From: a virus
Virus record (IMG/VR): IMGVR_UViG_3300047444_000577
Span: 1 to 64,000 of that record
Length of the DNA: 64,000 nucleotides
Direction: 5' to 3' (one strand)
Made by a program: the position numbers and the translations under genes. The stretch's first letter is position 1. Each line of letters opens with the position of its first letter. Shown one piece after another: positions 48,724 through 58,343 of this stretch. A model generated the notes under the pieces. It was not told where the DNA came from. It ran no database searches and saw only the letters and a list, made by a program, of their open reading frames with translations.

Positions 48724-49566
48724 TTAGAAACTAACGTCTTGCGTTCCCGTACTGGTAGCCAGGGCGAACTCGAACCCTTCGTGGGCCAGGGTCATCTGCT
48801 GGACGATGATCGCGTTGGCTCCGGCGTCGAGGTCGGACCAGGCTATTGCGGTCGGCCACGCGTTCCAGACGCGGAACGAGGCCTTGACCGGCGGGTTCGG
48901 AACGGTGACCGGGAAATCCAGGACGTTGATGGTGACCATCTGCCGGAACTCCGCACCGGGCTTGCCAGTTCCCGTTCCCTGGATGACGGTGAACAACTGC
49001 CGCATCCAGTCCATCATCTGCGTGTCGCCGATCGCCATGCCCTTGGACAGGGTGATCGGAGCGAAGTCGGACTGACCCATTCTGTTACCCCTCCGATTCC
49101 TCGGAGTGGGCCGATCATTTCTGTCGGCCTCTTACGCTCTCGCGCAAGATCGGAACTATATCTTGATCCCGGAGGGATCTCCCGTACATAGTCTCTGAAC
49201 CTTCCCCATTTGACAGGGGCTCGGCTGCTGATTTTCCCTACCCTGATCTTTTCGAACCATCACGCCTAGGCTTTCGCCTTACGTTGTGGTGACCAGGTCT
49301 AACAGGACGTTCCAGCAATTCTCGGGATTATCCTGCGCAACTTACGCTGCGAGGGCCCAATCGCTCATAGGCATCTTCTGCGTGGTCGTATTCATACCGC
49401 CTTCGCGGTATGGAATGACCTCGGTCGTGACGTTGAGGCCGGACACGGACATGAAGCCCATGCGGGCGAAGCCCTTGATGTCCGGGTGCTGGATCTGCAC
49501 CTGGAACTTGAAGTTGCGGAGGGGGTCCGTGGCGATGTGCCCCACGGACGGCGTGACCTTGGCCAT
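48724..49566 (-). CDS. Tail tube protein, interrupted by a group I intron
   Basis: Exon 1 is 49566 to 49369 (66 codons, MAKVTPSVGHIATDPLRNFK... to QKMP), exon 2 is 49077 to 48724 (117 codons and TAA, from GQSDFAPITLSKGMA). Joined, they give 183 residues with QKMPGQSDFAPITLSKG, the conserved segment of T4 gp19-like tube proteins (p-G-xxx-FxPIxLxkG). Without splicing, exon 1 reads into the intron and stops after nine residues. It lies downstream of the sheath gene by 12 bases, the usual sheath-tube order. The tube forms the inner conduit for DNA. Confidence 0.9.
49078..49368 (-). ncRNA. Group I intron A in the tail tube gene
   Basis: 291 bases with no ORF of note. On the minus strand it has P (AATTGCTGG), R (TTCAGAGACTATGTACGGG), S (AAGATATAGTTCC), ends in G, and follows a U in exon 1 (CCT). 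P1 pairs exon GCCU with intron GGGC, giving the U-G wobble at the splice site. The same core, with compensatory changes, recurs in introns B and C in the capsid gene. Splicing is inferred from the exact in-frame rejoining of a conserved protein. Confidence 0.9.
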
Positions 49567-56510: not shown

Positions 56511-58343
56511 TCAGTTGGTCTCGGCGATCAGGACGGCCTGGTCGGTGATGAGGCCAAGGCCCCAGATCGCGTACCAGGCGAGTGCGTGCTCTCGCATTCT
56601 GTTACCCCTCCGGTCTCCCGGAGTGGGCTGGTCATTTCTGCCAGCCTCTGCATGTCTCCATGCAGATCCGAACTATATCTTCACCCGCGTGGGGTGACCC
56701 GTACATAGTCTGTGAACCTTCCCCAGCTAAAGGGCTCGGCTGCTGATTATCCCTACCCTCAGATTTTCAAGCGTTCACGCTCAGACTTTCGTCTCACGTT
56801 GTAGCTCTGAGGTCTAGCAGGACGTCCCAGCAATTCTCGGGTTGTTCACTGACAGATTGCTCTGTCAGGCGGCCAAAGTGAAACCGAAGTCGAGGATGCC
56901 GCCGTCGCGCAGTTCCACCGGGAGGGAGATCGCGTGCCCGAAGGCGTTGTCGCCCAGGAAGATGCTCTGGTAGACCGTCTTCCCCAGTGCGTTGGTGAAC
57001 TGCTTCACCTGCGTGGTCTCGATGAACACCACGTCGTTGAGGCGGCCGATCTCGCCGATCATGAACGAGCCCGGGGCCGCGTACTTGGTGACCTCGATCC
57101 ACTCGGGGTCATCGCGCAACTGCCGCGACTGGTGCGGGTGGACGAACGCCACGTACGTGTCCCCCAAGCGGGGGACGTTCTTGGTGCTCAGTGTCTCGGT
57201 GGCGTCCTTGGTGAGGGCCGCCGTGAAACTGAAGGTGCCGTCCAGCAGGTCAGTGCCGGTGGCGGCGGTGCCGTGCGAGTACTGCGCCATGACGCCGAAC
57301 GCGCTGGTCTGGGCGTACTTGTTGTAGCCCCAGATCTTGCTCGACGCCTGCAGGAGGGTGTCCCGCGCGGACTGGTCGAGGTAGAGCGCCATGTTTCGCG
57401 TTCTGTTACCCCTCCGGATTTCTCCGAAGTGGGCTGGTCATTTCTGCCAGCCTCTACAGGTTTCCCTGTAGACCCGAACATCTCTTGACCCTCTCGGGTC
57501 TCCCGTGCATGTTCTGTGAACCTTCCCCAGTTAAGGGGCTCGGCTGCTGATTGTCCCTACCCTCTTCTTCTCAAACCATCGCGCTCGGGCTTTCGCCCCA
57601 CGCTGTGGTGAAGAGGTCTAGCAGGATGTTCCAGCAATTCTCGGGATTTTCACTGAGAGGTTTCCCTCTCAGGCGGCCAAAGTGAGACCGAGCAGACGCG
57701 AGGCCGAGGCCATCACGTCGTCGAAGGACGCGTTGAGCAGGAGTTCGGAGACGGCGACCGCGTAGCCGTGCTCAGCCACCGTGATGGAGAACTGAGAGGC
57801 CGACAGGGCGTTGGTCTGCATCCGAACGCCTTCGACCAACTGGGAAGCGGCTCCCAAATTGTTGTACCTCATGAAGTTGATTTGGAGACCGGGCTGAACA
57901 CCCAACTCCGTCTTCTTCACGGCGAACTGCTCGACAATTCGCGATTGTTACCCGCTGGCTGCGGGGCCAAAGCATTTCTGTCTGGCTCTTGCACTTTTCC
58001 ATCGTGCAAGTTCGGACTATATTTTCATCTCCAGTACCGACCTACTGCCCATCTAAAGGCTGGAACTGTTGGAGATGCCTCGCGTGTAGTCTCTACGGAG
58101 TCCCAGATGTTGGGTTCCCTCGGTATTCCCCATTCGCCCATTTGGAGGGGTTCACCGATACAGCGTGGTTCTCACTGACCCATCACTGGATCAGGCGGCC
58201 CGAGACCGGAGGATCGGCATGCTCTGGAACAGGATCTCCTTGGACCAGATGGTCTGGATCGCCGCACCGAGCGTGCTGTTGGCACCCGAGTAGTTCGTCG
58301 GCGAGGCCGACAGGTTCGGGGTACCGGTGATTGCACTGGGCAT
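56511..58343 (-). CDS. Major capsid protein, N4-gp56 family, four exons split by three group I introns
   Basis: Exon 1: 58343-58205 (139 bases); exon 2: 57934-57687 (248); exon 3: 57398-56883 (516); exon 4: 56594-56511 (84). Joined they give 328 residues without a break. Junctions read ILRFEQFAVKKTELG, RLLGRNMALYLD and DFGREHALAWYA, all typical N4-gp56 capsid segments; SMPILR, GEIGRLNDVVFIET and IAETN are also present. Read unspliced, exons 1-3 each run into a stop after RSRAA, GLTLAA or GFTLAA. AAAAGGA precedes ATG 58341-58343. It builds the icosahedral shell with the scaffold upstream. Confidence 0.92.
56595..56882 (-). ncRNA. Group I intron B (capsid exons 3-4)
   Basis: 288 bases. R is TTCACAGACTATGTACGGG, S is AAGATATAGTTCGG, with a P/Q region (AATTGCTGG...) and a terminal G. 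The 5' exon ends GGU and pairs with GCCG in the intron start (TTTGGCCGCC). Almost identical in layout to introns A and C. No ORF inside. Confidence 0.9.
57399..57686 (-). ncRNA. Group I intron C (capsid exons 2-3)
   Basis: 288 bases. R is TTCACAGAACATGCACGGG and S is AAGAGATGTTCGGG. Compared with intron B, ACTAT in R became AACAT and TAGTT in S became TGTT, so P7 pairing is kept by matching changes. 5' exon ends GGU; the first intron bases (CTCACTTTGGCCGCC) match intron B. Confidence 0.9.
57935..58204 (-). ncRNA. Group I intron D (capsid exons 1-2), different subgroup
   Basis: 270 bases. R-like GTAGAGACTACACGCG and S-like AAAATATAGTCCG are present, with exon end CGGU pairing GCCG near the start and a terminal G. 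Internal sequence differs from introns A-C, so it was probably gained separately. Internal subclass (IA-type or other) cannot be fixed by eye. Confidence 0.85.

Follow-up and report, generated by a model that had tools for sequence, protein, structure and literature searches.

Can a capsid gene that is broken three times by stop codons still yield a capsid, and if so, are the interrupting sequences of use to the virus or do they merely spread in its genes? In the window analysed here (the whole stretch of 64,000 nt of viral DNA), four exons and three group I introns make up the gene of the N4-gp56-type major capsid protein (MCP), on the minus strand at 58343-56511 (Table 1). The virus is BRock-like: its TerL (61% identity), portal (60%), sheath (46-57%) and tube (64-76%) proteins are similar to those of BRock (Borockvirus; host, Streptomyces), and the order of the homologous genes, TerL-portal-scaffold-MCP-sheath-tube, is kept. 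Judging from sequence comparison, it is very probable that the three introns are removed by splicing, giving the mRNA of a 328-residue capsid protein.

The exons (139+248+516+84 nt) together provide 328 codons and a stop. In a profile search the spliced MCP matched the major head protein phrog_1357 (E=5e-58, residues 19-330), and the Pfam capsid families PF25209 and PF13252 matched it above the cut-off; these searches used a first splice model, three residues longer at junction 1. The closest reference, with 94% protein identity, is an intronless MCP (L006). As the intronless relatives read uninterrupted through all three positions (MPILR-FEQFAVKK, RLLG-RNMALYLD and DFG-REHALAW), the intron boundaries in the window are fixed, and at each of the three sites a single best in-frame junction with U ending the exon and G ending the intron was found. 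Intron 1 interrupts a codon (CGG U/UC GAG, Leu-Arg-Phe-Glu, the slash marking the junction). Two other junctions were considered for this intron: CGGUCU/...G/CGA is in frame, but adds Ser-Arg-Ile-Val (SRIV), which is absent from the intronless relatives, and would also leave a one-base P1 loop; CGGU/...G/CGA shifts the frame and was rejected. Three further metagenome assemblies contain the three MCP introns at 99.97-100% DNA identity, and the tail-tube intron is present, at 99.2%, in a fourth. Thus, the interrupted gene is not an assembly artefact.

Table 1. Exons, introns and early stop codons of the MCP and tail-tube genes in the window
Feature	Position	Strand	Description
MCP exon 1	58205-58343	-	139 nt; ATG at 58343; homology to intronless MCPs
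MCP intron 1	57935-58204	-	270 nt; clade B; site c, after ...CGGU
MCP exon 2	57687-57934	-	248 nt; homology to intronless MCPs
MCP intron 2	57399-57686	-	288 nt; clade A; site g, after ...CUCGGU
MCP exon 3	56883-57398	-	516 nt; homology to intronless MCPs
MCP intron 3	56595-56882	-	288 nt; clade A; site l, after ...UUCGGU
MCP exon 4	56511-56594	-	84 nt, 27 codons and stop; dN/dS vs intronless relatives
UGA in the exon's frame, intron 1	58191-58193	-	14 nt into the intron
UGA in the exon's frame, intron 2	57669-57671	-	18 nt into the intron
UGA in the exon's frame, intron 3	56865-56867	-	18 nt into the intron
Tail-tube exon 1	49369-49566	-	198 nt; homology to BRock tail protein gp137
Tail-tube intron	49078-49368	-	291 nt; clade A; RF00028 match 49131-49417, 54.3 bits
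Tail-tube exon 2	48724-49077	-	homology to BRock tail protein gp137; spliced reading frame

A covariance search (cmscan, Rfam) matched the group I model RF00028 to intron 3 (56648-56890, 70.8 bits), intron 2 (57454-57694, 53.0 bits) and intron 1 (57988-58219, 38.5 bits, E=4.7e-7), the last falling under the gathering score of 50 bits, as do most introns of its family, clade B. The core was matched over the whole model, and the whole virus record (98,440 bases) contains exactly four matches, three in the MCP gene and one in the tail-tube gene. Introns 2 and 3 are 81-82% identical to each other; clade B introns at the site of intron 1 (site c) are also present in relatives such as L062, L063, L137 and L242. 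In all three window introns the internal guide GCCG pairs with CGGU and the last base is G; P1 comprises just 4 bp by simple count, and the P10 pairs were read from the sequence by eye. Thus, the earlier note, made from the sequence alone, correctly read an N4-gp56 capsid once three sequences are removed, the presence of three group I introns, junctions that restore the frame and obey the exon-U/intron-G rule, and a last exon of only 27 residues.

Structure alignments were built for 19 clade A introns (including introns 2 and 3 of the window and the tail-tube intron) and 20 clade B introns (including intron 1), with the P7 pseudoknot added by hand to both. Helices P3, P4-P6, P7 and P8 are present with covariation: 98.5% (clade A) and 99.3% (clade B) of the paired cells are complementary, and 43 of 76 and 25 of 54 pairs, respectively, are changed on both sides. 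None of 500 shuffles matched the observed values of pairing and two-sided change, and the pairing dropped to 29-43% when the partners were slid by 1-3 columns. In intron 2 of the window the P7 strands deviate from the usual GACUA/UAGUC by compensatory double changes (columns 214/258 and 215/257 of the clade A alignment). Given this covariation, we may conclude that the intron cores are maintained as RNA structures. The guide region of introns 2 and 3 (first 36 nt) has an identity of 0.69-0.83 to that of intron 1, versus 0.58-0.64 for the cores; this is suggestive of introns 2 and 3 combining a clade A core with a 5' domain derived from clade B, but such an origin was set aside, P1-P2 being short and constrained. 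A clade A intron at site c in another locus (L148:2416-2722) begins with bases like those of the clade B site-c intron, so that intron types may have exchanged their 5' domains.

On sequence comparison with six close intronless relatives, all exons, including the 27-codon exon 4, are under purifying selection. The dN/dS ratio is 0.06-0.12 for exon 1, 0.04-0.06 for exon 2, 0.16-0.25 for exon 3 and 0-0.02 for exon 4, and does not exceed 0.26 for any single exon. Such selection would not persist downstream of one to three stop codons if the introns stayed in; the exons, therefore, must be joined.

The MCP gene of the window is one case of an intron hotspot, and this is a stronger finding than the single gene. 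By MCP-anchored scans, intron-anchored scans and gene mapping we mapped 47 MCP introns in 29 loci of BRock-like (Borockvirus) actinobacterial myophages. They occupy 13 positions, which are, as codon/phase of the window gene, 33/1, 37/2, 46/1 (intron 1), 51/2, 69/1, 98/2, 129/0 (intron 2), about 137/0, about 231/2, about 236/0, 252/2, 301/0 (intron 3) and 307/1; in what follows sites are lettered in this order, so that the last is site m. The junctions are unique, in frame and of the U/G type, being established by enumeration for 46 introns and placed by hand for the remaining one. All 47 introns are 264-311 nt long, and hence have no room for a homing endonuclease ORF. Five introns each are carried by L103 and L134/L219, four by L126 and three by L117. 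Thus, while the three introns of the window gene stand, their earlier description as unusual needs amending, since relatives exceed this number and multi-intron phage genes, including a crAss-like capsid gene, have already been published. In L103 the introns total 1435 nt, more than the coding sequence, and L219 has an exon of 39 nt; spliced in silico, L103 gives a protein with 97% identity to that of the intronless L143 (DNA, 85%), and L219 one with 89% identity to intronless relatives. Five RF00028 matches cover the MCP gene of L134. In L103 the model finds four of the five introns, the site-k intron having no match at E<=0.01, and this fifth intron is placed by the clade B alignment and its junctions.

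The introns are far from universal. In the MCP-anchored scans, a non-random sample, an intron-size gap was seen in 15 of 126 distinct full-length MCP genes, about 88% being without one, and in the named isolates found (BRock, LuckySocke, Alone3, pSt2308 and GiJojo) the MCP was matched full-length in one piece, without introns. Thus, the life cycle does not depend on any one of the introns. Interrupted copies are also present in bacterial genomes, namely Saccharothrix sp. ST-888 (L117/L140, three introns), Streptomyces diastatochromogenes ATCC 21481 (L139/L242, introns at site c and in the tail-tube gene) and one more genome from the same genus group (G079).

The insertion sites tend to share a short sequence: 11 of the 13 end in GGU, whereas in intronless genes 9% of all T follow GG (nominal p=3e-10). 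At site c, CGGU is found in 12 of 12 intron-bearing alleles versus 20 of 103 intronless ones, and at site m, GCCU in 8 of 8 versus 36 of 96; the alleles in these two comparisons are partly related, so that p-values overstate the difference. Intron-bearing alleles may also have adapted to GGU after insertion. In the tree of 46 introns there are two clades (support 100/100). Introns 2 and 3 of the window cluster with the L126 site-j intron and a portal-gene intron (96/96), and the site-d intron of L117 and the site-i intron of L103, 94% identical, are sisters (100/92), the L121 site-d intron falling outside; the same intron was found at different sites of near-identical MCP genes. At sites c, d and k some phages have a clade A intron and others a clade B intron. 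At the same time, clade B site-c introns, and likewise most clade B site-m introns, cluster across phages. Thus, introns are inherited or transferred as alleles and also move from site to site, the counts of sites and clades not being fully independent events. In the L143 lineage a check for co-conversion revealed no clear excess of differences beside the insertion sites.

Read on from the exon, the host frame reaches a stop codon in all 47 introns, at 4-38 nt from the 5' splice site (median 14) and in every phase. Of the three frames, the host frame is the first to stop in 14 of the 16 site-by-clade groups (5.3 expected; p=1e-5), and a stop within 38 nt is present in the host frame of all 16 groups, versus 15 of the 32 other frames. 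In introns of the GGCCGCCUGA type one and the same UGA mostly lies 14 nt from the splice site in phase 1, 16 nt in phase 2 and 15 or 18 nt in phase 0; hence, the length of the P1 loop follows the frame. Most group I introns have an early in-frame stop, which keeps ribosomes off the core (reviews PMC3073962, PMC3984707). A P1 loop that follows the phase across sites looks new, an earlier report being possible.

Beyond the MCP gene, the window carries an intron in the tail-tube gene (Table 1), which after splicing has a reading frame of 183 aa; the host-frame stop is at 27 nt, and the site is shared with L125 and L139 (the Streptomyces diastatochromogenes chromosome). In a genome-wide RF00028 scan of 28 virus records, introns were found in 10. 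The 26 BRock-like records (about 2.5 Mb) yielded 12 matches, 11 in MCP and one in tail-tube genes, and none outside these two genes; with the window added, there are 14 MCP and two tube matches. The scanned records were partly chosen for MCP introns, and matches elsewhere would still have shown. Several group I introns were noted in other settings. One is in a portal gene (L113:2902-3182), at a CGGU site, and belongs to the clade of introns 2 and 3 of the window. Another phage family has related introns within or close to a gene that encodes the shared peptide GLVPFDLLAPSRLI (L123:673-1790 and L122:1092-1353), with a DUF559-type endonuclease-like ORF near the former. In L091:3887-5600 a group I intron that contains an HNH-like ORF comes after a diverged N4-gp56-like capsid gene (23% identity), near the equivalent of site m. 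Related introns of other phages (L086, L092) have GIY-YIG-like ORFs inside, and in large virus contigs (L087, L093, L105) group I introns apparently reside in tRNA-like genes, their 3' flanks being GTTCGAATCTC-like.

From these features the following scheme may be proposed. The guide GGCCG, whose GCCG part pairs with CGGU, would mark the U ending the upstream exon; an external guanosine would cut after this U, and the exons would be joined past the terminal G of the intron, three such reactions producing the capsid mRNA. Splicing in vivo is presumably efficient. The UGA at 14-18 nt in each window intron would release ribosomes before they reach the ribozyme core. Two ribozyme families have repeatedly colonised the MCP gene and, more rarely, those of the tail tube and the portal, mostly at GGU/ sites. 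Their spread would proceed by ectopic insertion directed by the guide, through reverse splicing or recombination, and an abundant transcript would favour it.

If, instead, the MCP were a decaying pseudogene, or the contig an assembly chimera, the stops in each intron, which break the frame at the DNA level, would be readily explained; this is most improbable, as three other assemblies share the structure at 99.97-100% identity, dN/dS is low across every exon, and tblastn revealed no second MCP copy in the window. Alternatively, unspliced or exon-skipped forms could give useful products. Exon 3, of 516 nt, is a multiple of three, so that joining exon 2 to exon 4 stays in frame, introns 2 and 3, 81-82% identical, have the same guide and target, and Twort group I introns skip exons, according to the title of Landthaler and Shub 1999. 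However, skipping would remove 172 of the 328 capsid residues and unspliced forms terminate a few residues past the exon, which makes this very unlikely. The earlier note suggested that splicing could time virion production. In favour of its efficiency timing or limiting capsid production, the introns being regulators, are the translation stop near the 5' splice site of every intron, by which splicing and translation are plausibly coupled, and T4, where intron splicing is tied to translation and to the growth state of the host (title of Sandegren and Sjoberg 2007, as cited in PMC3073962). On the other hand, early in-frame stops are a general feature of group I introns that excludes ribosomes (PMC3073962), relatives have from zero to five introns at varied positions, and the MCP of named isolates is uninterrupted. 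A regulatory role is thus unlikely, and the suggested timing has no support, as the introns come and go at 13 sites. We infer that the MCP introns are more likely near-neutral or selfish ribozymes hopping within an abundant transcript.

As for the route of spread, reverse splicing fits the shared guide, the short GGU targets, the lack of an endonuclease and the concentration in a gene for which high transcription is expected; the finding of closely related introns at different sites with guide-complementary targets is circumstantial evidence for it, and we regard it as tentative. A fuller version, in which endonuclease-free introns hop between MCP sites by guide-directed reverse splicing into the mRNA of this gene (GGU/ targets), the P1 loop is retuned at each new site to provide a stop in the new frame, and the MCP gene, as the most abundant target, acts as a sink, is likewise conceivable but doubtful. 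Recombination between related introns is another possible route. Ordinary homing, by an endonuclease since lost or supplied in trans, has a real, if minority, chance of being the explanation: endonuclease-like ORFs are found in or beside related introns (GIY-YIG-like in L086 and L092, DUF559-type in L123, HNH-like in L091), and introns at sites c and m largely cluster by site across phages, as allelic transfer predicts. Against it, all 47 MCP introns, at 264-311 nt, are too small for such an ORF, the HNH, HNH_3, GIY-YIG, LAGLIDADG_3 and DUF559 families are all absent from the 98-kb record of the window, and a site-specific endonuclease alone does not account for 13 sites. A homing endonuclease could possibly be of a family other than these five, or be encoded elsewhere, in another phage or a missing part of the incomplete record.

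Whichever route applies, a 1-kb MCP gene with 13 occupied sites is a natural testbed for intron spread without a DNA-cutting enzyme, since closely related alleles differ in whether they have introns, one intron is found at more than one site, and some bacterial strains harbour genes of this kind. It is also a warning for annotation: if the introns are not modelled, capsid genes of BRock-like phages will be missed or called as fragments.

Several introns in a single phage gene are known from other systems. Twort orf142 has three (Landthaler and Shub 1999, as cited in PMC11878797 and PMC3073962), and DNA polymerase and terminase genes of Bastillevirinae have up to three group I introns per gene (PMC11878797). 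These resemble the window gene in number; however, they are other genes in other phages, whereas the gene family considered here is structural, with up to five introns and 13 sites, and its introns are short, compared to a mean of 802 nt in Bastillevirinae (PMC11878797). For whole genomes, Jug phages have a mean of 18.5 introns (PMC12363816). In the crAss-like Zeta group cMAG OLRF01000054 the MCP is in five fragments, three of the four gaps encoding group I intron domains (PMC7886860). It is, like ours, a capsid gene split by several group I introns, but it is one example from unrelated phages, the introns being recognised by the encoded domains (endonucleases) (PMC7886860). The actinobacterial cluster J mycobacteriophages also have group I-type introns in capsid (LittleE) and tail (BAKA) genes, with splicing demonstrated by RT-PCR; the BAKA intron is short (265 nt) and lacks an endonuclease, as do the window introns, but there is one intron per gene, and the LittleE capsid intron is 820 nt long with a LAGLIDADG-like frame (PMC3706429). 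The Streptomyces phages BRock and LuckySocke have the same capsid family, with about 72% identity and a similar gene order, and, unlike the window, no MCP intron. In the literature covered, which is partial, no paper on introns in Borockvirus or in Streptomyces phage capsids was found. Thus, this kind of element is already known, and what appears to be new is the density of introns, the number of sites and the lack of endonucleases in one 1-kb gene.
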